Assembly: GCF_018143015.1 (NCBI RefSeq)
Contig: NC_054747.1
Coordinates: 34,856,733-34,920,732 of the forward strand
Direction of reading: 5' to 3'
DNA length: 64,000 nt
Source of the DNA: Lytechinus variegatus
Lineage: Eukaryota > Echinodermata > Echinoidea > Temnopleuroida > Toxopneustidae
The position numbers and the translations under genes are program-made. Positions 5,415 through 47,407 of this stretch are shown here, piece by piece; positions within the stretch are counted from its first letter, which is position 1; every line of letters begins with the position of its first letter. The notes under the pieces were generated by a model. It made no database searches, was not told the DNA's origin, and was given only the letters and a program-made list of their open reading frames with translations.

Positions 5415-5886
5415 TCATCATAAGATCAACTCCTTGTTGAAGGCACTGTGCATATATGAAGTCGAGTTGAAGTTGTAAGTCATACACTGTATCATCCCGA
5501 TCTTTTACAGCCTTCTCTAATTTATGAATGTAGTGATCTTTCTGTTTAAGTAGATTCTGATCATTAAAACGCAGATCTTGTAACTGCTTGATTTCTCTGG
5601 TAGACTCCCCCATCTGCCTGTGAAGACTCTCATTTTCGCTCATGGTCAGGCTAGTAAGTGATCTCTGAACTTTGAGGTCTTCTCTCAATCGATCTTTTTC
5701 TTTTTTCATTTTGAAACAATGAGTGCAGGGACCTGTAGAATCCAAAGAGTCTTGACTTTGATTGACATTATTACTCTTCTTGAGTAATTTTTCCCCTTCT
5801 GGCTCTAACTGCTCTACTGGAGAGATGATGGAGGGGGACTGGTTAGCATTAGGAACTGGGTCAGGAGTACCAGATTCTTCTTCCAA
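5374..5886 (-). CDS. LINE 1 ORF1, middle part: coiled coil
   Basis: A 170-codon frame dominated by a heptad-like helix (about residues 55-145, rich in Glu, Lys, Leu and Arg), preceded by a CTHCFKMKKEKD segment. Coiled coils of this kind drive ORF1 multimerisation in many LINEs. The first residues here and the last residues of the PHD frame are translations of the same DNA in two phases, so a one-base shift near 5886-5870 probably splits a single ORF1 protein. Confidence 0.75.
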   Translation of the reverse strand: MEEESGTPDPVPNANQSPSIISPVEQLEPEGEKLLKKSNNVNQSQDSLDSTGPCTHCFKMKKEKDRLREDLKVQRSLTSLTMSENESLHRQMGESTREIKQLQDLRFNDQNLLKQKDHYIHKLEKAVKDRDDTVYDLQLQLDFIYAQCLQQGVDLMMNENPPPTYLKVNF

Positions 5887-6338
5887 ACCTCTGAAGTCTC
5901 CATGCTCAAGGTTGGAGGATTCACAATACTACAGGAGGAGCAGATAATTGATTCGTCTTTAACTGCTCTGGTAGGGAGGCAATGAAGGTGAAACCACTTG
6001 CAGCAATCTTGACATTCAACAGAGTTTTCAGTATTTGGTGAATTGCAAATAGCACAGTTTTCTTCTTGAGAAACCTGACTCTCTTGAGATGGTGTAGGTG
6101 GTGTAGACAGCTTCATAGGTATATCTTCCTGGAATCTGCAATCTGCACAGATGAAATCAATCTCATCCATACCTAGAAGGTGGGTCAAGTCTTGTGGAGA
6201 CAAGATTGTGCATTCAAAATGTAGCCATCTGTTGCAGGAGGCACAAAGAATAGTCTCTGTACAGGCATGAGCTTCGCAAACTGGACATGTACATGTTGCC
6301 TTTCCTTTTCCTTTGCAGTCGCACCCATTGCGCTTCAT
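5814..6338 (-). CDS. LINE 1 ORF1, two PHD-type zinc fingers
   Basis: The frame begins MKRNGCDCKGKG. It holds two Cys4-His-Cys3 fingers: the first at about residues 15-67 (CPVCEAHAC, CASC, HFEC, CADC) and the second at about 94-137 (CAIC, CQDC, HLHC, CSSC). PHD fingers bind histone tails in host proteins, and in CR1-like elements they may help targeting or particle assembly. Its ATG overlaps the stop of the upstream frame as ATGA (6338-6335), which suggests coupled termination and reinitiation rather than a mutation. Confidence 0.85.
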   Translation of the reverse strand: MKRNGCDCKGKGKATCTCPVCEAHACTETILCASCNRWLHFECTILSPQDLTHLLGMDEIDFICADCRFQEDIPMKLSTPPTPSQESQVSQEENCAICNSPNTENSVECQDCCKWFHLHCLPTRAVKDESIICSSCSIVNPPTLSMETSEVWKKNLVLLTQFLMLTSPPPSSLQ

Positions 6339-6754
6339 GGAGTCATTTTGGAGAGCAGGTCAAGTCTTCTTTTAATCTCTTCAAGAGTTGATTTTACATC
6401 AGTCATATCCACTTGAAGATCAGAAGCATCCATGTTAATGATTTTTGATAACAGCTCTGGAATCAGCTGTGTCTGCTTTCCTCTTACTAGTAACTTGCTA
6501 GTTGCTCCGAAGAAAGTGATGGTTAATTTCTTCTGTTTGCCTCGCTTCCCATTAACGAGTTTATTGTAAGTTTCGATGGTATTCTTTGCAATCCCTTTGC
6601 TATTAACCCCTTGTGTTAGAACTGACACATGTTGTGGGTTGATGCCCCCTTTCTGGGTTGAAGCAAGAATGGCTAGATTCTGAAGATTCTCAAATAGTGG
6701 GTGTGGTAGGGTAACTGCAATTTGTTTTTCACCATTCCGAGTTAAACTACCCAT
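6335..6754 (-). CDS. LINE 1 first small ORF, unknown N-terminal domain
   Basis: A 139-codon frame starting MGSLTRNGEKQ and ending in the ATGA overlap with the PHD frame. A beta-rich segment, LTITFFGATSKLLVRGKQ at about residues 76-93, resembles a short motif I associate with leader segments of some invertebrate retroelement polyproteins. A short helix follows (residues 110-135). I do not recognise a named domain. Its position at the 5' end, just after the UTR, makes it a real element gene rather than a shadow. Confidence 0.65.
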   Translation of the reverse strand: MGSLTRNGEKQIAVTLPHPLFENLQNLAILASTQKGGINPQHVSVLTQGVNSKGIAKNTIETYNKLVNGKRGKQKKLTITFFGATSKLLVRGKQTQLIPELLSKIINMDASDLQVDMTDVKSTLEEIKRRLDLLSKMTP

Positions 6755-9132: not shown

Positions 9133-9422
9133 TGTATAAATCCCCTCTTTGATCCAGTTTGAAAAAATAACGTTTCTTTCTCATGTTTTATATTACTATT
9201 ATACCAGATAATTTCTTGGTTTACATTGCAAACATTAAACATGTGAATATACTTTATTTCAGACCACGATCTAAAAAGGTCAATGTAAAACACTGGTAAC
9301 TGTTTTCTTTTGCATATTCTTATCATATCATTTTTTTGGCAATTAAATCTCAAACACATAGGAATGTCAGAAATTTTACTGATCCAATAATTGAATAAAA
9401 TTTTCCATGATGTTTTTTTCAC
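9117..9422 (-). CDS. LINE 2 ORF2 fragment after the RT
   Basis: A 101-codon frame whose start is the same DNA as the last codons of the RT frame, in another phase. A run of seven A residues (coding strand, about 9421-9415) is the likely slip point. The content (WKILFNYWISKISDIPMC) is typical of the region between RT and C-terminal knuckle in L1/Tx1 elements. Confidence 0.7.
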   Translation of the reverse strand: MKKTSWKILFNYWISKISDIPMCLRFNCQKNDMIRICKRKQLPVFYIDLFRSWSEIKYIHMFNVCNVNQEIIWYNSNIKHEKETLFFQTGSKRGFIQWDRL

Positions 9423-11427
9423 CTGAGATATATTTTTGAATCCATGATAAACGAAGAGAAGAACATTTGTAAATTAAATTGACCATTCTAAGGCCTCCTT
9501 CTATTTCAGAATTACAGCATACATTTCGCTTGACCTTTTCAGCTTTGGAATTCCATAAAAAAGAGTATATTAATCTATTTACCAATTTAATTATTTTCAA
9601 TGGTACTGGGACTGCTGTTGCTGTATATACTAATTGAGAAGTGACTAAATGCTTTATGACAGTCACCTTCCCATACAAAGTTAGTTTTCGCATTTTCCAT
9701 AAATCTAAAGTACTTTTCATTTTCTTCACTTTACCTTCCCAATTTAAAATTTCAACTTCTCTATGAAATTTTCCAACATAAACCCCGAGACATTTTATAG
9801 CATTTTCTGTAAATTCCAAATCCTCAGTGTTTTGGACATTGATATTTAATCTCATGAACTTAGATTTTGACCAATTAATTTTGGGACCGACATTTTTACC
9901 AAAATTTTCTACTTCTCTCATTATTTCTTTAACAGAGTTGACAGAATCTGCAAAAATTGTAGTATCATCTGCAAACTGAACTATGCTAATATCTATGAAC
10001 TCTGAACAATCTGATTCAGGGTTAGGTACTTGAATACCTCTAATTTCTGAATTCTGTTTAACTTTTGCTGATAAAACTTCTGCCAAAATTATAAACAAAA
10101 GGGCAGACAATGGACATCCTTGTCTTACACCCCTGTTAATCGAAAACCTTTTAGATATCCAACCATAATTCATTATTTTACCACTGGCGTTATTATACAA
10201 AGTCTTAATCCATTTAATAAACGAATTTTTAAAACCAAGTTCTTCTAGTAAAGTGAATAAGAAATTATGATTAACGGTGTCAAAGGCTTTCTTAAAGTCT
10301 AATGACATAATGATACCAGGTGTTTCAGTACTTTGACAAAAATCAATTATGTCCTGTACAAGTCTAATGCATTCAGGTGCAGAACGATTTTTCATAAAAC
10401 CAAACTGATCTTCAGATACAATGCAATGAATAATTTTCTTCAATCTAACAGTCAAAACACGAGCTGCTAATTTGTAGTCTATATTAAGAAGTGATATGGG
10501 CCGCCAATTATCTAGAAGATTTTTGTTGCCCTTTTTATACAAAAGAGTAAGGATGGCTTGACTTTGAGTTGAGGACAATTGTGTTTTGTCATATCCCTGA
10601 TTCAAGCTGGCAACTACCATCTGTTTCAAGTCCTCCCAAAAACATTTATAAAATTCAACACTTAAGCCGTCACTACCAGGAGACTTGTTCAGATTCATTG
10701 ACTTTAGTGCAAGCCAACATTCATTTTCTGTAAGCTTTCCCTCACATATATTTGCTTCTTCATCATTCAAAACATATAACTTTAAGTTACCTATATATTC
10801 TTTAAAATTATTTCTTACATCATCTTTTTGATACAGTTTAGTATAGAATTCATGTATATTTGACAAAATTTTCTCATCTTCCTTAATAATCTTTCCATTA
10901 ATATCAATACAGTCTATTTCTTTCTTTTTGCCTTTTGCTTTTTCAAGCTGGAAGAAGTATTTAGACGATTTCTCTCCAAACTCTAGCCACCTTGCTCTTG
11001 AGCGAACATAGGCACCTTTGCATTGATATTCATACCATTTATTGATCTCACGTTTTAAACGACTAATTTCGTCTACATCTTTGCTACGTCGATCTTTATC
11101 TAGTTTTTCACAAAGTTGATTATATCTTTTTTCAATGTGTGTTATATGTTCCCTCTTCTTCCTTGACACATCAGAAGCATACTTAATGCTAAACTCCTTT
11201 ATTTTAACTTTACACATCTCCCACTTCAATTGATTATCAAAATTGCTATATTCCATTTTGATCTTTTTAATAACATTTTTTATGCATTTTTTATACATTT
11301 CATCATCAAGTAAGGAATTGTTCAATTTCCAAAAACATTTTCCCCGCTTTTTTGTTGTTACCTGAATTTTCATCGAAACAGCATTGTGATCACACTTTAA
11401 TACTGGTTTAATATCAAGAGAATGCAC
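9376..11427 (-). CDS. LINE 2 ORF2, reverse transcriptase
   Basis: This 683-codon frame holds a complete RT. Motifs in order are NWRPISLLNIDYKL, DQFGFMKNRS, IMSLDFKKAFDTVNH (motif A Asp), GVRQGCPLSALLFI and QFADDTTIFA (catalytic Asp pair). A Lys-rich linker precedes the RT (residues 20-200). The frame is in phase with the endonuclease frame: a single TAG at 11445-11443 separates them (DYWLVS, stop, AFVPYVHS). The listed start is a GTG and is not a true initiation site. Confidence 0.92.
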   Translation of the reverse strand: MHSLDIKPVLKCDHNAVSMKIQVTTKKRGKCFWKLNNSLLDDEMYKKCIKNVIKKIKMEYSNFDNQLKWEMCKVKIKEFSIKYASDVSRKKREHITHIEKRYNQLCEKLDKDRRSKDVDEISRLKREINKWYEYQCKGAYVRSRARWLEFGEKSSKYFFQLEKAKGKKKEIDCIDINGKIIKEDEKILSNIHEFYTKLYQKDDVRNNFKEYIGNLKLYVLNDEEANICEGKLTENECWLALKSMNLNKSPGSDGLSVEFYKCFWEDLKQMVVASLNQGYDKTQLSSTQSQAILTLLYKKGNKNLLDNWRPISLLNIDYKLAARVLTVRLKKIIHCIVSEDQFGFMKNRSAPECIRLVQDIIDFCQSTETPGIIMSLDFKKAFDTVNHNFLFTLLEELGFKNSFIKWIKTLYNNASGKIMNYGWISKRFSINRGVRQGCPLSALLFIILAEVLSAKVKQNSEIRGIQVPNPESDCSEFIDISIVQFADDTTIFADSVNSVKEIMREVENFGKNVGPKINWSKSKFMRLNINVQNTEDLEFTENAIKCLGVYVGKFHREVEILNWEGKVKKMKSTLDLWKMRKLTLYGKVTVIKHLVTSQLVYTATAVPVPLKIIKLVNRLIYSFLWNSKAEKVKRNVCCNSEIEGGLRMVNLIYKCSSLRLSWIQKYISGEKNIMENFIQLLDQ

Positions 11428-11442
11428 ATACGGAACAAATGC

Positions 11443-20180: not shown

Positions 20181-20797
20181 ATTCCCGACCTTTCGTTTGA
20201 GGACGCGGACGCTAATTTACAACGGTAGTTGATTTTGGAAGAGACTTTAGGGCCGTCGTAAAACTCTGGCCGGCAATGCAAATTGTGTGACATGAGATTT
20301 TTTTTTCGTTTCGCATCTGCGACGGATACGTTCAATATGCGTTTCGTGTGCAAAATTCTGGTTGCTACTATGGTAACAGCGATATATCGATTGAGGACGA
20401 CTTTCCAAATCAACATTTGACTCCTCCTAGAGCTCGAGAGGCCGCCCGGGGGCCCACTTCCATTGATTAGTGGATACTAAGAGCGACTACGCGTAAAAGG
20501 GGACAGAGTGGGCAAGTACATTACGTATAGACCTATGTAACGTTATAATTAAAGGTGTCAAACGATGTTAAAATGCTGAAAAAGGATACATATCCAATAC
20601 TCGTAGGGTTTCACACTTGTTAAGAGATGCATTTAATAATCTGGAAAATAATTAATTGCTTCCCTTGTTTAGCGGGGTACTGTTCGAAAATCCATGGTCG
20701 TGCCTGGTATCCACTCATCAATGGAAGTGGTCCCCCCGGAATTTGAATCTAATCCACATTTCTGCGGAAAGTAAAACATAATGCCCATTATCACCCG
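20181..20797 (+). repeat. Repeat module, first half of a split copy
   Basis: Aligns along its length with 39591-40223 (right arm of the large palindrome): cattcccgacctttcg at its start, aaaacataatgccc at its end. The rest of the module resumes at 31661. Nested inside is a CCCGGGGGCCACTTCC-type foldback (20441-20740), the same family as 53206-53758. Confidence 0.85.
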
Positions 20798-31660: not shown

Positions 31661-32283
31661 ATTACATCGTGTGCTAGAGGCATATCGTTTGTGTAGAAGG
31701 GGTTAAACAAAAGAAACAAAAGAAACCCGCGAGGTCAACACGTCCCTGGTCAAACGTATTGCATGCTGTGTACATACGTGTATCAACGCATGCGAAATGA
31801 AATGTTCGGCTGGAGAGGTTAATCTAACCCATGAAATCAATTGCCAGTGATCCACCAATAATCCACATTAAATGCAATATCGATTCGATGGACTGAAATG
31901 ATCTATATCTAAGCCTTCATTCAGTAAGTTTTTCCTCTCTCAATATGTAGTCGATTTTTTTTAAAAACCACTCTCTTATCCATGTCATAACTTATTTTAG
32001 GTCCTGCATTTCGAATATCTCCAGCCATCAGTCGTAATATACATACACATATGGTGCGGGTGTCGCGGGAAAGGATTTTGCACACGAAAGGCAGATCTGT
32101 AGGGCCTGTAATCCCCGGTAACACAAAGCTTAGCATTGATTGTAGAACAGTTTTCTACGTTTGATTCTATTGACTATAGTGTACAATCAATCTTAAAAAT
32201 CAAGTGTATGATTAAGCGTTAACATTTGTGTTAGGGGACCCTAATACTAGCGTCGGTGAAGATTGCGAAAGGTCCCAATTAAA
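31661..32283 (+). repeat. Repeat module, second half of a split copy
   Basis: Aligns with 40227-40818 of the palindrome arm, from catcgtgtg to cgaaaggtcccaatta. Together with 20181-20797 it makes one module copy in correct order and orientation, missing only about 3-4 bases at the break. The open frames match those of the palindrome arms but are not genes. Confidence 0.85.
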
Positions 32284-33589: not shown

Positions 33590-33717
33590 TGTGTTATAAT
33601 TCGTTCATAGAATTACACGGTGTAATTCTTCTTTCATTACAGTGTGTATTGCGATGCTCTATGTCATAATATTATTAAAAAAGCATATTATTATCAATGT
33701 TATTTTTTGTTGGAAAG

Positions 33718-33843
33718 ATTGTGACAAGAATGTCTGCGAAGGCAACTGCTGCGAGGAGACTATAGACAGCTACCGATGCCACTGCTCGACATCTGGCAAT
33801 AAACCTGAGCCAAATATGACCAAGTTATTACCATCTAATCAAG
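33718..33843 (+). CDS. Exon: EGF-like module
   Basis: 126 bp, phase 1 at both ends, bounded by ttttttgttggaaag and aatcaag|gtaaat. It encodes DCDKNVCEGNCCEETIDSY then RCHC, a six-cysteine spacing like an EGF module, with a Gly/Asn/Pro-rich tail. Phase 1-1 symmetry is the rule for EGF exons. A stronger-looking acceptor at 33641-33642 (cttctttcattacag) is also in phase 1 but would add an Ile-rich stretch. I prefer the shorter exon. Confidence 0.65.
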
Positions 33844-34104
33844 GTAAATATAAGAACATGAAGAGACTGGACGTGCACTAGAATTGAAAGCAATATTAAT
33901 AAACCCAAATCCAGTATTTCGTAGCAGGCCCATGTCCCAAAATGACCTTTAATATCCACAGGTATTTGGAACTTGGAAAAGGTTTTTTTTTCACTTCGAT
34001 CAGGGGTTTCATCATCATTTCCCGCCCGTCAAGTTTTTCAGATCTGACAACTTTCAATGACTTTGATTGGCTAGAAGCACAGTTCCTATAGTAAAGGTCT
34101 GTCG

Positions 34105-34519: not shown

Positions 34520-34524
34520 GGGCA
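34520..34524. repeat. Left flanking repeat GGGCA of the 6.3-kb foldback
   Basis: gggca directly precedes the terminal TGTTACAACCGATAAT. The same five bases directly follow the other terminus (40832-40836). Confidence 0.65.
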
Positions 34525-34536
34525 TGTTACAACCGA

Positions 34537-34690
34537 TAATGTCGCACCAACGCATAATGTCGCAGCAACGCATAATGTCGCAATCTGCGACATTATGCCA
34601 AGAGCGTCCGACGCATAATGTCGCAGTCAACGCATAATGTCGTAGTTTTTCTAACGCATAATGTCACATGTCGCAACGCATAATGTCACA
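34537..34690. repeat. Minisatellite, aacgcataatgtcgca units
   Basis: About eight units of 14-16 bp, some inverted (gcgacattatgc). The same units appear at 38157-38300 and 39546-39584. Confidence 0.85.
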
Positions 34691-35280
34691 GCGGTATTTT
34701 CTTCAGGACTCGAGCTACAGATAAGATATAAAACATGCTTTTACTTAGTATTTTGAGACACGAAAACGAGAATGAAATTATTTTGAAATCAGGATTACTC
34801 TTTGTATGGATATTTGTCGCTTTATTGCCATTTCGTCTACTGCCTTTTCCCCACTATCGCATGGTCTGATATCACTTCGTCTACTATTAGCTAGTCAACT
34901 ATCAACATAGTCCAATAACCATTTCGTCTAATTACCATCTCGTCTAATAGCCAGTTGGTCTAATAGCCGTTGTGTTTATTAATATTTAGTCTAATTGTAT
35001 TTTTTTCAGTTGGTCCAATATCCATTTTGTCCAATATCATTACGTCTATTACCTTTTTGTCTAAAAGCCAATTGGTCTAATAACCACTTGGTGTACTCTC
35101 ATTTTCGTCCATGTTCCATTTGGTCTAACTTCAGTTGGTTCGCTATCACTTTGTCTAAACCCATTTCGGCTAACAATCATTTGGTATCGTTACAATGGGT
35201 CCAATCACCATTAGGTCCTATCACCGGTTCTAGGACAATTACCTCCCCCCAGAAAATCACCTTCCGGACAACCAATTCTT
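34593..35280 (+). repeat. Arm 1, left copy
   Basis: Inverted match to 37620-38303. It includes a second minisatellite (34880-35200) of units such as taatagccagttggtc. Conceptual translations of the two arms differ at only a few residues, so arm identity is roughly 90 per cent or better. Confidence 0.85.
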
Positions 35281-35450
35281 GACATTTAGCCTCCGAGGTA
35301 AATTACCCCCCCCCCGGACAATTACCCCCGTACAATCATCCACTGGACAATTATTTCACAGACAATTACCCCCCCCCCCCAGCAAATGCCCCGAGAACAA
35401 TGATTCCCCAGACAGTTACCGCCAAACAATTACCCCGGAAATCCCCCCCC
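35223..35450. repeat. acaattaccccc minisatellite
   Basis: Degenerate acaattacc-cccc units. The inverse sequence (ggtaattgtcc) forms a longer block at 37160-37640, so the two can pair. Confidence 0.8.
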
Positions 35451-35479
35451 CACCTTCTCTCTGGCATCGAATCAAGCGT

Positions 35480-36470
35480 GACCCCAGGGGGGAAGGGGGC
35501 ACTCGACCAAAAAAGTGGTAGGGGTGTGCCGTGGGCGAGACAAAAAACGGGGTCCTTGGAACGGATCGCTAGCGTGTCAGTGCTGATGCATCCCTGTGGA
35601 ACGGATATGCGTGCATGACGTAGCCCCGGGGGGGGGGGGCACTCGACCAAAAAAGTGGTGGGGGTGTGCCGCGGGCGAGACAAAAAACGGGGGCCTTGGA
35701 GCGGGCTTATTGTAAAAAGGAGGGTCCTCGGAACGGGCTTCGGAACGACAAATGTTTGTGAAAACGGGGGTCCTTGGAACGGATCGCCAGCGTGTGAGCG
35801 CGTATGCCTCCCTACGGAACGGTCATGCGTGCATGATGCAGCTAGCGCGGCCTCCGCCGGGGAGCTCTGCGGCCGCTTTTCACCAAAATTGCAGCTCATT
35901 CAACGCGATCGGAGCGGCGTAACGAAAAATATGCGAAGCTTTGGAGCGGATTTCTCTCTTCTTTTTTCTCGATAAGAAGAAAATGCTATGCCTTGGAGCG
36001 GCTTTCTGTGTTCTTTTTCTCAACAAGGCAAAAATGCTATGCCTTGGAACGGAAATTTGAGTGTAAAAATGGGGGTCCCCTCCGCGGCACATACCCACTA
36101 TGCATTGTATACTGAGTGCCCCCCCCCCCCGGGGATGTAGCTCGCCCGGCGGCACGTCCGCCGGGTGCGCTCGCGCAGAGGTGATGGTCGGACAGCGCTC
36201 TGCGGCCGCATTTCACCAAAATTGCAGCTCATTGTAGCGGATCAATGTGACCGGAACGGCGTAACGAAATATATATGACAAGCTTTGGAGCGGATTTCTT
36301 TCTTCTTTTTTCTCGATAAGAAGAAAATGTTTTGCCTTGGAGCGGCTTTATTTGTTCTTTTTCTCAATGAGACAAAGATGCTATGCCTTGGAACGGAAAT
36401 TTGAGTGTAAAAATGGGGGTCTCCTCCGCTGCACATTATTATATACTTAGTGCCCCCCCCCCCGGGCGTG
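35480..36470. repeat. GC-rich dispersed repeats in the foldback loop
   Basis: Two related blocks (about 35485-36125 and 36130-36465). The first holds two copies of gggggcactcgaccaaaaaa, and both share cttggagcggatttct, ctatgccttggaacgg and a C-run border. It is much more GC-rich than its surroundings. Overlapping open frames on both strands are by-products of GC richness. Confidence 0.75.
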
Positions 36471-36524
36471 AACCATTATAATGGTCTGGGTCGGTGGCAC
36501 AGGTTTTCAATATATTTTCTACTT

Positions 36525-36650
36525 TATCTTATGTTAATAACTTTCTCTCTTATATCGCTCTTTCTCCCTTTTTCTCTCTCCCTCTCTCACATTTTCTTCT
36601 TTTTCATTTTTCTTCCTTTTCCGCCTTTTTTCTTTTTTTTTGTTTAGCAA
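36525..36650. repeat. CT/T-rich low-complexity tract
   Basis: Pyrimidine-rich run within the loop. 36651-37159 shows no gene. Confidence 0.7.
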
Positions 36651-37159
36651 TGCCTTCGGCATCATGAAAAATGGGGGTGGGGGCTTGCGCTATATAGCTA
36701 CGCATCTGCACATCGGAAAACTGTGTAAACTGGCCCACATACTAAGTTTTCATAGAACAATTGAACATTCATGAAAAGACACGATTAGACATAATAATCA
36801 CAAATGCCTAATATCTCTGATTCCAGTTGATCTGATTTTTTCTTGATTCATTTGGGGTTTAATTTCAGGAAAAAATCAGGAAAATAGATAAAACATTAAA
36901 AAGACACCTTCACAGGTAGAAATATTGAAAGTCGGTAACGCAAACCATCAACACTACTATTGACAAGAAGAACCTATAAACCTGTTATTTTAAAACAATT
37001 CATCTAACAAGAAGCTAAGAATTATGAAACAATTGGTGCACATTCCAGATTAAGATGTGGCTTAAGTTTTAATACAGTAAGCAAAAAAAAATATGCAAAG
37101 ATAATATACGCAAGAACGCCTTGTAATTTTACTATTTAGGCCCTAACTCTGTGCTCTCC

Positions 37160-37640
37160 CTTTGTCTAGGGGGTTATTGTCCCCGGGGCAGGGTAATTGT
37201 TCCCGTTGGTAATTGTCCTCTGGGGTAATTATCGGGGGTAATTGTCCTCGGGGGAGGGGGTAATTTTCCTAAGGGGTAATTGTCCGGGGGTAATTGTCAT
37301 CGGGGGGTAGTTGTCCGGGAGTAATTGTCATCGGGGGGTAGTTGTTCAGGGGGTAATTGTCCGGGGGTAATTGTCCAGGGGGTAGTTGTCCGGGGGGGGG
37401 TAATTGTCCTCAGGGGGTAATCGTCCTCGGGGGTAGTTTTACAGGGGGTAGTTGTCCGGGAGTAATTGTCTAGGGGGGTAATTGTCCAGGGGGTAATTGT
37501 CCGGGGTGTAATTGTCCTCAGGGGGTAATTGTCCTCGGGGGGTAATTGTCCTCAGGGGGTAATTGTCCTCGGGTGGGTAAACTTGTCAGGGATTAGTTGT
37601 CCGGAAGGGTAATTGTCCGTGGGGTAATTGTCCTAGAACC
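37160..37640. repeat. gggggtaattgtcc minisatellite
   Basis: More than 20 degenerate units of gggggtaattgtcc(tc). It is the inverse partner of 35223-35450 and is clearly expanded relative to it. Confidence 0.9.
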
Positions 37641-38303
37641 AATGATTGGACCTTTTGGTGATTGGACCCGTGGCAACGATACCAAATGAGTGTTAGCCGA
37701 AATGGATTTAGACAAAGTGATAGCGAACCAACTGAAGTTAGACCAAATGGAACATGGACGAAAATGAGAGTACACCAAGTGGTTATTAGACCAATTGGCT
37801 ATTAGACCAAAAGGTAATAGGCGTAATGATATTGGACAAAATGGATATTGGACCAACTGAAAAAAATACAATTATACTAAATGATAATAAACACAACGGC
37901 TATTAGACCAACTGGCTATTAGACGAGATGGTAATTAGACGAAATGGTTATTGGACTATGTTGATAGTTGACTAACTAATGGTAGACGAAATGATATCAG
38001 ACCATGCGATAGTGGGGAAAAGGCAGTAGACGAAATATCCATACAAAGAGTAATCCTGATTTCAAAATAATTTCATTCTCTTTTTCGTGTCTCAAAATAC
38101 TCAGTAAAAGCATGTTTTATATCTTATCTGTAGCTCGAGTCCTGAAGAAAATACCGCTGTGACATTATGCGTTGCGACATGTGACATTACGCGTTGACGA
38201 TTTGCTGCGACATTATGCGTTGCGACATGTGACATTATGCGTTAGAAAATCTACGACATTATGCGTTGACTGCGACATTATGCGTCGGACGCTCTTGGCA
38301 TAA
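37620..38303 (-). repeat. Arm 1, right (inverted) copy
   Basis: Reverse complement of 34593-35280, ending in the same gccaagagcgtccgacgc words and the gcgacattatgcg minisatellite (38157-38300). Confidence 0.85.
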
Positions 38304-40818
38304 TTGGGACCTTTCGCAATCATCACGGACGCTAGTATTAGGGTCCCCTAACACAAAAGTTAACGCTTAATCATACACTTGATTTTTAAGATTGATTGTG
38401 CATTACAGTCAATAGAATCAAACGTAGAAAACTGCTCTACGATCAATGCTAAGCTTTGTGTAACAGGGGGGTTACAGGCCCTACAAATCTGCTTTTCGTG
38501 TGCAAAATCCCTTTCCGCGACACCCGTACCGCATACATGCATGTATATTACGACTGATGGCTGGAGATATTCAAAATGCAGGACCTAAAATAGATTTATG
38601 ACATGGAGAAGAAAGTGGTTTTTCAAACAAATCGAGAACATATTGAGTGAGGAAAAACTTACTGAATGAAGGCTTAAATATAGATCATTACAGTCCATCG
38701 AATCGATATTACATTTAATGTGGATTATTGGTGGATCACTGGCAATTGATTTCATGGATAAGATCAACCTCTCCAGCCGAACATTTCGCATGCGTTGATA
38801 TGTACACATCATATGCGATACCTTTGAACTCGTTTCCTTTTGTTTCTTTTGTTTCTTTGTTTACTCCTTATACACAAACGATATGCCTCTCGCACACGAT
38901 GTGAGGGGCATTATGTTTTACATTCCCCAGAAATGGGGATTAGATTCAAATTCCGGGGGGACCACTTCCATTGATGAGTGGATACCAGGCACGACCATGG
39001 GGTTTCGAAAAGTACCCTAAACATGCTAAACAAGGGAAGCAATTCTTTTCCAGATTATGAAAATGCATCTCTTAACAAGTATTTGGCTTGTGAAACCCTA
39101 CAAGTATTGAATATATATCCCTTATTTCAGCATTTTAAACATCGTTTTGACACCCTTATAACGTTACATAGGCCTATATACGTAACGTACCTGCCCACTC
39201 TGTCCCCTTTTACGGGTGGTCGCTACTGGTATCCACTAATCAATGGAAGTGGGCCCCCCCGGGCGGCCTCTCGAGCTCTAGGAGGAGTCAAATGTGGCTT
39301 TGGAAAGTCGTCCTCAATCGGATAAATCGCTGTTACCATAGTAGCAACCAGAATTTTGCACACGAAACGCATATTGAATGTTTCCGTCGCAGATGCGAAA
39401 CGAAAAAAAAATCTCATGTCACACAATTTGCATTGCAGGACTGAGTTTTACGACCATGATCACGGGCCCAAAAAGTCCCTTCCAAAGTCAACTACCGTTG
39501 TAAATAAGCGTCCGCGTCCTCAAACGAAAGGTCGGGAATGTCGCAGATTGCGACATTATGCGTTGCTGCGACATTATGCGTTGGTGCGACATTCCCGACC
39601 TTTCGTTTGAGGACGCGGACGCTTATTTACAACGGTCGTTGACTTTGGAAGGGACTTTTTGGGCCCGTCACCATGGTCGTAAAACTCAGTCCTGCAATGC
39701 AAATTGTGTGACATGAGATTTTTTTTTCGTTTCGCATCTGCGACGGAAACATTCAATATGCGTCTTGTGTGCAAAATTCTGGTTGCTACTATGGTAACAG
39801 CGATTTATCCGATTGAGGACGACTTTCCAAAGCCACATTTGACTCCTCCTAGAGCTCGAGAGGCCGCCCGGGGGGCCCACTTCCATTGATTAGTGGATAC
39901 CAGTAGCGACCACCCGTAAAAGGGGACAGAGTGGGCAGGTACGTTACGTATATAGGCCTATGTAACGTTATAAGGGTGTCAAAACGATGTTTAAAATGCT
40001 GAAATAAGGGATATATATTCAATACTTGTAGGGTTTCACAAGCCAAATACTTGTTAAGAGATGCATTTTCATAATCTGGAAAAGAATTGCTTCCCTTGTT
40101 TAGCATGTTTAGGGTACTTTTCGAAACCCCATGGTCGTGCCTGGTATCCACTCATCAATGGAAGTGGTCCCCCCGGAATTTGAATCTAATCCCATTTCTG
40201 GGGAATGTAAAACATAATGCCCCTCACATCGTGTGCGAGAGGCATATCGTTTGTGTATAAGGAGTAAACAAAAGAAACAAAAGGAAACGAGTTCAAAGGT
40301 ATCGCATATGATGTGTACATATCAACGCATGCGAAATGTTCGGCTGGAGAGGTTGATCTTATCCATGAAATCAATTGCCAGTGATCCACCAATAATCCAC
40401 ATGAAATGTAATATCGATTCGATGGACTGTAATGATCTATATTTAAGCCTTCATTCAGTAAGTTTTTCCTCACTCAATATGTTCTCGATTTGTTTGAAAA
40501 ACCACTTTCTTCTCCATGTCATAAATCTATTTTAGGTTCTGCATTTTGAATATCTCCAGCCATCAGTCGTAATATACATGCATGTATGCGGTACGGGTGT
40601 CGCGGAAAGGGATTTTGCACACGAAAAGCAGATTTGTAGGGCCTGTAACCCCCCTGTTACACAAAGCTTAGCATTGATCGTAGAGCAGTTTTCTACGTTT
40701 GATTCTATTGACTGTAATGCACAATCAATCTTAAAAATCAAGTGTATGATTAAGCGTTAACTTTTGTGTTAGGGGACCCTAATACTAGCGTCCGTGATGA
40801 TTGCGAAAGGTCCCAATT
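38304..40818. repeat. 2.5-kb near-perfect palindrome of a repeat module
   Basis: Left arm 38304-39545 and right arm 39585-40818, with a 39-bp spacer made of gcgacattatgcgtt units. Long conceptual translations are identical between arms (for example 38379-38588 plus and 40532-40741 minus, 69 of 69 residues), so arm identity is very high. Each arm is one module copy ending ggacctttcg outside and cgacctttcg inside. Each contains a nested CCCGGGGG-type foldback (38953-39264 and 39864-40177). A third, older module copy is split between 20181-20797 and 31661-32283. Confidence 0.92.
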
Positions 40819-40831
40819 ATCGGTTGTAACA

Positions 40832-40836
40832 GGGCA
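40832..40836. repeat. Right flanking repeat GGGCA of the 6.3-kb foldback
   Basis: Copy of 34520-34524 immediately outside the right terminus. Downstream, 40837-41833 shows no gene. Confidence 0.65.
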
Positions 40837-43368: not shown

Positions 43369-43633
43369 GTCTTCCAGCGAAGACATGATGGTTCTGTTGA
43401 TTTCTATCTCTATTGGTCGGACTACAAGCACGGTTTTGGGAACGTTTCATCAGAGCACTGGCTAGGGAACGACAACATCCACCGTTTATCTCGACAGAAG
43501 ATATACGAGCTACGGATAGATCTAGAAGATTTCGAGGGACACAAGTGGCACGCCACCTACAACAATTTCAGCATCGGGGACGAGATGGAAAATTACCGGC
43601 TCCTTACTCTTGGAAGTTATTCTGGAAACATAT
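43369..43633 (+). CDS. Exon: FReD domain, central part
   Basis: Acceptor ctttccttttag, donor aacatat|gtatga. Phase 0 in, phase 1 out. It encodes VFQRRHDGSVDFYLYWSDY, then GFGNVSSEHWLGNDNIHRLS and YRLLTLGSYSGN. These are the hallmark motifs of the FReD core (V.QRR.DGSV.F, GFGN...E.WLGND.IH.L, Y.L.LGSYSGN). Confidence 0.92.
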
Positions 43634-44191
43634 GTATGAAACCATGGATATTTTCGTGTTTAATACAGGCAGATTTTATCACATGACTTTGCTGTGCAAC
43701 CGGCTTTCCGAAAACCACTTCGTGCAACGCAGTGTTGTAGGCCTAGATCTTTCGTTAGTATTACTTCCGGGGAGGCAAGACGAGTAAAAAAAAAATAAAA
43801 TAAGAAACTAGTGAGCGAGGGTGCAAAGTGGCCGGGCTTGTCATTTAGGAGTTTTTGGAATTTCTAAAGCAAAATTGAAGGATTTCGCACACACTTTTGG
43901 TGATTTTTTTTTTAAAGTTTTCGAAATTTCTCTGTGTGTGCGTGGAGGGGGGTTAACTGCACAGCTTTGGGGAAAAAATTAACATAACGGTGCACATCTC
44001 TTTTACCACGCATCGTTGAAAAAAATATTCTGCGATCATTGCTAAGCTTTGTGTTACGGGCCCCAGGTTACGGTGCAGAAAGAGTTGCGTTTGAACGCAA
44101 CGCAAAAAATTAGATCAACATCCTCATACGCGAGTTTCAGTGGATGAATAAAAATGCTTTCACAGGCCTTATAGGTCACGTGTCGTGCGTA

Positions 44192-47161: not shown

Positions 47162-47407
47162 ATGACAGTATGACGTACCATATCGGTTATGAGTTCAGTA
47201 CCCCGGGACCGGGACCACGACACGAGCCCGCTCGAATGGGAAAACTGCGCCACTCGCTACAAAGCAGGATGGTGGTACGGCGGATGTTACGCTGCCAACC
47301 TAAACGGCGTGTACGGTCTAAAAAGCTTGGATGGTATCTCGTGGCAAGATCGGGCATACAATCGCGAGACACTCAAGAATACAGAGATGAAAGTTCGTCC
47401 GGCATGA
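47162..47407 (+). pseudogene. Exon: FReD domain, C-terminal part with one-base frameshift
   Basis: Acceptor ttttcaaaaacacgatacag. It enters in phase 1 and reads YDSMTYHIGYEFST (tail of the Gly-rich loop), then the frame shifts by one base within the C-run at 47201-47204. In the shifted frame the exon continues DRDHDTSPLEWENC (calcium site and third cysteine), then YKAGWWYGGCYAANLNG (fourth cysteine and ligand pocket), ending EMKVRPA and TGA at 47405-47407. Exon length less one base restores the phase exactly, so one extra base is the only defect. Confidence 0.88.

Follow-up and report, generated by a model that had tools for sequence, protein, structure and literature searches.

The sea urchin Lytechinus variegatus carries a high-copy family of foldback transposons, one copy of which lies at positions 34525-40831 of the window studied here, the whole stretch of 64,000 nucleotides analysed from contig NC_054747.1 of RefSeq assembly GCF_018143015.1. 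This feature, 6,307 bp in length, is very probably one insertion of the foldback DNA transposon together with two nested copies of a second transposon, termed F in what follows. The foldback family is real and well bounded, and the compound look of the window copy is due to the two nested insertions. The original prediction, made from the letters of the window, had described a single compound element with defined ends, in which two successive inverted-repeat pairs joined by a 15 bp minisatellite formed one mobile unit; the defined ends and the foldback architecture, with long inverted arms containing tandem repeats, were confirmed, and the unity of all the internal modules was not.

Results

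The boundaries of the window copy are exact. A terminal inverted repeat of 16 bp, TGTTACAACCGATAAT, occupies 34525-34540 (+ strand), its exact inverse occupies 40816-40831 (− strand), and both are flanked, as had been claimed, by GGGCA (34520-34524 and 40832-40836), the outer boundary being set by such 5 bp duplications. When the genome (869.6 Mb in 33 contigs) was searched with the 16-mer, 409 exact matches were found, 206 forward and 203 reverse, compared with one forward and no reverse match for a control in which the 16-mer pattern was reversed. At least one of the 409, at locus L059, is not a genuine end of the foldback family and belongs to another repeat. Of 660 candidates for a query of 201 bases taken from the left end, 40 were scored; 59 matches were obtained, many of which start exactly at the terminus. 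The relatives with the same ends that had been anticipated, including the second copy that was to be looked for, are thus present in number.

Duplication of 5 bp at the insertion site extends across the family. Lengths of 3-9 bp were compared in the 29 end pairs for which sequence was available, and an exact 5 bp duplication was present in 21 of them, whereas none (0 of 29) had an exact duplication of 3, 4, 6, 7, 8 or 9 bp; when partner ends were shuffled, at most eight exact 5-mers were obtained in 2,000 trials. To this extent, with 16 bp termini and a 5 bp target duplication recurring from copy to copy, the description of a single mobile unit with defined ends was correct. The consensus of the target in the exact set, both strands being counted, is approximately GTA-RGSCY-TAC. 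RGSCY precedes 34 of 65 distinct ends and NGSCN 49 of 65 (L059-L061 left out), in a count that takes both ends of an insertion separately, so that the ends are not all independent; the background frequency of RGSCY in the window is 0.34 %. With L059-L061 included, RGSCY stands before 35 of 68 ends, and GC content is 81 % versus 39 %. The target of the foldback is the GC-rich palindromic motif RGSCY.

Empty sites were found for two relatives of the window copy, both of which sit in other repeats. The foldback at L055 could be compared with empty-site relatives at L050, L030 and L031, and that at L057 with L028 and L045; in each case the 5-mer occurs once where the site is empty and twice where it is filled, and the breakpoints of the related empty sites coincide with the foldback termini. 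The single 5-mer in these empty sites shows that members of the family insert with duplication of 5 bp. The empty site that the original prediction had proposed to look for therefore exists for L055 and L057, and is missing from the assembly for the window copy itself.

The second palindrome of the window copy consists of F. The first F copy, of 1,232 bp, lies at 38305-39536 (+ strand) between AAT duplications at 38302-38304 and 39537-39539, and the second, of 1,222 bp, at 39594-40815 (− strand) between ATT duplications at 39591-39593 and 40816-40818. The second copy stands directly behind the 16 bp terminus, and the first 57 bp further in. When a script removed both, with one 3 bp repeat each, 3,847 bp of foldback remained, the two ends of which are perfectly inverted over 90 of 90 bases; the last 400 bases of this F-free sequence differ from five F-free copies by 2-8 mismatches and 36-96 gap columns, the latter probably reflecting differences in array length. 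Thus two F insertions of opposite orientation in the right end created the second palindrome and brought the element to 6,307 bp. What had been proposed as a module of the foldback, the second inverted pair, accordingly consists of two independent 1.2 kb elements with 3 bp duplications of their own, and the 57 bp block between them (39537-39593) is the foldback's own right end. Long perfect inverted repeats are generally known as a source of assembly error, and the right half could on that ground be suspected of being a false inverted join. Against such an artefact stand the exact 3 bp duplications on both F copies, the 7 mismatches and 10 gap columns between the two, the perfect terminus restored by their removal and the recurrence of the F junction behind the terminus in other copies, and we regard it as the least credible of the explanations considered here.

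The earlier proposal, that the whole is one compound element in which the F palindrome is a foldback module moving only with the foldback, draws support from the frequency of F at the foldback end: an F-family end comes immediately after about 92 of the 409 exact termini, by our own reading, and such F-bearing ends, being common, may amplify as a subfamily. Several observations speak against it. There are 202 exact genome matches to the F 5′ end outside the terminus and core-minisatellite contexts; among the 100 of these that were listed, no more than five can lie in foldback arms, namely those reading TGACATT, a string also produced by variants of these arms; for L028 and L029, two of the five, such a position is certain. 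ANT precedes 94 of the 100 listed F ends (57 AAT, 21 ATT, 10 AGT and 6 ACT; background 9.5 %), or 89 of 95 when the five TGACATT ends are set aside. F is inserted in either orientation and occupies several different AAT sites. Furthermore, loci L047 and L056 are 98 % alike, but only one of them contains a particular F insertion, which has a clean ATT duplication; L056 has a single ATT, so that the two form a filled and empty pair for F. F is independent of the foldback, and we consider the compound element very unlikely. At L055, comparison with L050, L030 and L031 shows a foldback inserted into an F-family element, so that insertion goes both ways between the two families. The one F open reading frame (ORF) searched had no Pfam match. 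A third F copy lies in the window outside the foldback and is split (20188-20786 and 31664-32273), with about 10.9 kb between its parts. A pair of further minisatellite fields, at 21.1-21.7 and 30.1-31.2 kb, lies in this interval, and inspection by eye revealed no clean duplication where the copy is split.

The position of F at the foldback terminus is itself recurrent. In 104 of the 409 exact matches (48 and 56 by listing) the terminus is not followed by G, and in about 92 of these an F-family end, in one or the other orientation, sits at the identical position, a count that comes from our reading of the listed strings and pools separate insertions with any hitchhiking amplification of F-bearing foldbacks. 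By type they comprise 47 TGGG, 21 CCCGACC, 3 other CCCG, 13 AGGC or AGTC, 4 TGCC or TACC, 2 TAGG and 2 AGCG ends. The other 12 are eight minisatellite variants, L059, L060, L061 and one rearranged end. Some of the F copies adjacent to the terminus are only 81-91 % like the window F, a divergence that makes repeated, separate insertion at this nucleotide likely. As the 16 bp terminus stays intact when F inserts, F-bearing foldback ends may still be mobile.

With F set aside, the window copy shows the build of its family. Modules are shared between the window copy and 20 fetched copies or part-copies. They usually follow one another as A-B-C-D-E-c-b-a, read in either orientation, with the terminus next. 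In the left arm (+ strand), outer block A (34525-34811) comprises a minisatellite with a 15 bp core followed by a unique part and has its inverted partners at 38033-38304 and 39537-39593; block B (34812-35243), a degenerate 16 bp tandem repeat, is inverted with 37623-38054 at 94 % identity; and block C (35244-35489) is a minisatellite of the GGACAATTACCCC type. The middle is formed by block D (35490-36465) and block E (36466-37165), in the latter of which no coding capacity was seen. Block positions 136-644 of D (35625-36133) are absent in most fetched copies, the window block thus being about 0.5 kb longer than in these; by eye, block D may represent a nested element with the ends GGGGGCACT...AGTGCCCCC. 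The right arm (− strand) continues with blocks c, b and a, the inverted C, B and A, at 37166-38304, and ends in the 57 bp terminal segment stranded between the two F copies, which is inverted with 34538-34594 at 100 % identity. Both inverted-repeat pairs that had been reported are real, the first joining 34592-35243 to 37623-38304 (94-98 % identity) and the second 38300-39545 to 39585-40820 (96-100 %). The reported 15 bp minisatellite is likewise present, its core, by eye, being ACGCATAATGTCGCA with variable spacers; a repeat finder gives periods of 18 and 22. Compared by eye, this core and positions 8-22 of the left end agree in 13 of 15 bases. Full copies free of F are mostly 3.0-3.5 kb long; shorter ones also occur, the smallest being 681 bp. 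At three pairs of loci, L047/L056 (C14, about 118 kb apart), L028/L029 and L034/L035, the same flanks adjoin the foldback end, apparently as a result of locus duplication.

ORFs of at least 110 amino acids were listed for the window copy and the 20 fetched copies or part-copies, and 11 were put to Pfam. The only one with a match, of 1,370 amino acids in L048, was considered as a foldback gene and rejected, as it belongs to a Gypsy element nested in the foldback there (5.5 kb, with identical 155 bp long terminal repeats (LTRs), its own 5 bp duplication CCCTC and a sequence beginning TGTTAC); the other ten, from L039, L041, L044, L047, L048, L057 and the window, had no Pfam match at 0.01. Among the 21 copies or part-copies, no LTR pair around a reverse transcriptase was found bounded by the 16 bp ends. 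Integrase-like rva_4 domains gave 35 matches in the genome, none of them between those termini whose positions are known (part of the 409). The foldback is apparently non-autonomous, and the autonomous relative that had been suggested for search was not found among the ORFs searched.

Several further candidates for an autonomous partner were rejected. At L059 the terminus is followed by CTTGCCGCG; in five fetched copies, without exception, the repeat runs on upstream of the terminus and the 16-mer is off by one or two letters, which marks a different dispersed repeat. The 16-mer of L059 would then be a convergent or borrowed match. No right end was found for L059, and six of its ORFs had no Pfam match over the cut-off. 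In L059 (1-180) and L063-L067, a dispersed repeat other than the foldback has in its interior, about 65 bp from the boundary, the string GGGCCCC-TGTTACAACCGGTAATCTCGC or a close variant of it, which resembles foldback target plus terminus and could be an end that is fossil or borrowed. L061 has the terminus joined to another minisatellite, in a junction present in no other match (40 scored of 469 candidates); in its interval 1640-2000 the terminus is followed, after some tens of base pairs, by a minisatellite whose 15 bp GCCGACATTTGCTCC-like unit occurs commonly in the genome. L060 is related to F by similarity, and a possible 11.4 kb copy on C17 has ordinary foldback blocks at its centre and then other DNA.

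The foldback had been placed in an intron of a gene for a fibrinogen-related protein. Exons encoding a fibrinogen C-terminal domain are indeed present downstream, at 43369-43683 and 47174-47404 (+ strand); the ORF upstream (33600-33878) had no Pfam match, so that the intron placement is plausible at most. Elsewhere in the window there are two reverse transcriptase ORFs (PF00078) and, upstream of the first, a PHD finger ORF, at 1023-2522, 9379-11442 and 5817-6359 (− strand) in that order, which probably represent elements of the long interspersed nuclear element type.

Discussion

A number of observations weigh against the interpretation of the window feature as one foldback insertion moved by an integrase-type enzyme. 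Eight of the 29 end pairs lack an exact duplication, six of them matching at four of five positions and two at three of five; one inexact pair, L014/L015, has its ends 18.5 kb apart and probably does not represent one element. The independent exact pairs number only 20, as L047 and L056 duplicate a single locus. Both of the empty-site cases, L055 and L057, belong to the inexact pairs, the 5-mer being substituted at one position. The flanks of the window copy are single-copy DNA, and no empty allele of it is present in the assembly, the joined flanks matching only flanks of the filled site (2 of 2 candidates). A transposase was not found in the window copy or in the 20 fetched copies or part-copies (11 ORFs searched in Pfam). 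Finally, the case for an integrase-type enzyme is drawn from termini and target, and a resident Gypsy element that begins TGTTAC and has a 5 bp duplication differs in target.

The TGTTA ends, correctly read as integrase-like in the original prediction, together with the GC-rich target suggest an integrase-type transposase, and we judge the chances evenly balanced that the foldback is moved by a DDE transposase of the retroviral-integrase or Ginger-like kind. A DDE transposase acting in trans would bind the foldback terminus and cut with a 5 bp stagger. The repeated 15 bp core may serve as multiplied transposase-binding sites, a role that a report on Galileo (PMC3573991) discusses for repeats in that element. 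An alternative source of the activity is the resident Gypsy integrase, acting on foldback ends that look like its own: the Gypsy in L048 shares the TGTTAC start and the 5 bp length of duplication. Yet RGSCY stands before none of 51 Gypsy flanks (100 listed of 131, minus a repeated AGGGGGA context), the GC content of which is 45 %, and this source appears highly improbable. A RAG-like or Transib transposase, of a kind reported from sea urchins and one that a GC-rich target would fit, would account for the 5 bp duplication, which is usual there according to one account (PMC7204232); the same text gives ends starting with CAC, however, whereas those of the foldback start with TGT, and we find this origin scarcely credible. 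A bolder extension of the integrase-type interpretation is that the foldback marks an undescribed integrase-like cut-and-paste group, defined by TGTTA and RGSCY, and that F is a specialized parasite of one terminus nucleotide. We think this rather unlikely; if it were true, F would, by inserting there repeatedly, lengthen the hairpin arms without disabling the ends.

Many foldback families have been classified without a transposase. The present family makes its enzyme searchable, since its ends are exact, its target rule is strict and a single genome contains hundreds of its ends. The points of interest are a transposase with a 5 bp RGSCY target and the recurrence of F at one terminus position. 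As a second transposon has here built extra palindromes in a foldback, compound foldbacks need not be single designs. The family is named in no title or abstract opening of the literature searched, outside which most subscription journals and Repbase lay, and its absence from print is not claimed.

Among known systems, F resembles PIF/Harbinger and other transposons with 3 bp duplications in that duplication and in its short length, and is set apart from PIF/Harbinger by its ANT target and its ends, TGGGACCTTTCG and CCCGACCTTTCG. The TU foldbacks of sea urchins (Liebermann, Hoffman-Liebermann) reportedly have long inverted arms with tandem repeats of about 15 bp and a middle assembled in modules from other dispersed repeats, and duplicate 8 bp of target. 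The window family is like them in its inverted arms with repeats of about 15 bp and its modular middle, and differs in duplicating 5 bp, not 8 bp. Nor does it share the 8-11 bp range of Mutator duplications. According to the reports on Galileo and Tetris, foldbacks of Drosophila, these have long terminal inverted repeats with internal tandem repeats and a strongly variable structure (PMC3573991, PMC4079207), and in the Tetris report that element has no known autonomous copy and duplicates 8-10 bp, most foldbacks being assigned to Mutator (PMC4079207); the likeness to our family lies in the arms, the structural variability and, for Tetris, the missing autonomous copy, and the 5 bp duplication and TGTTA ends distinguish it. 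The Ginger affinity that had been suggested does not hold in detail. In the Ginger report (PMC2836005), TGTNR ends are the rule for Gypsy-type integrase elements; Ginger1 has a GC-rich palindromic target and a 4 bp CCGG or CCGT duplication, and Ginger2/TDD has TGTNR ends and an AT-rich RTATAY target, TDD-4 and TDD-5 duplicating 5 bp. On that account the TGTTA ends of the foldback fit TGTNR and its target is GC-rich and palindromic like that of Ginger1, from which it departs in duplicating 5 bp of RGSCY rather than CCGG or CCGT; with Ginger2/TDD it shares the TGTNR ends and, through TDD-4 and TDD-5, the 5 bp duplication, and it differs from them in a target that is GC-rich and not RTATAY.

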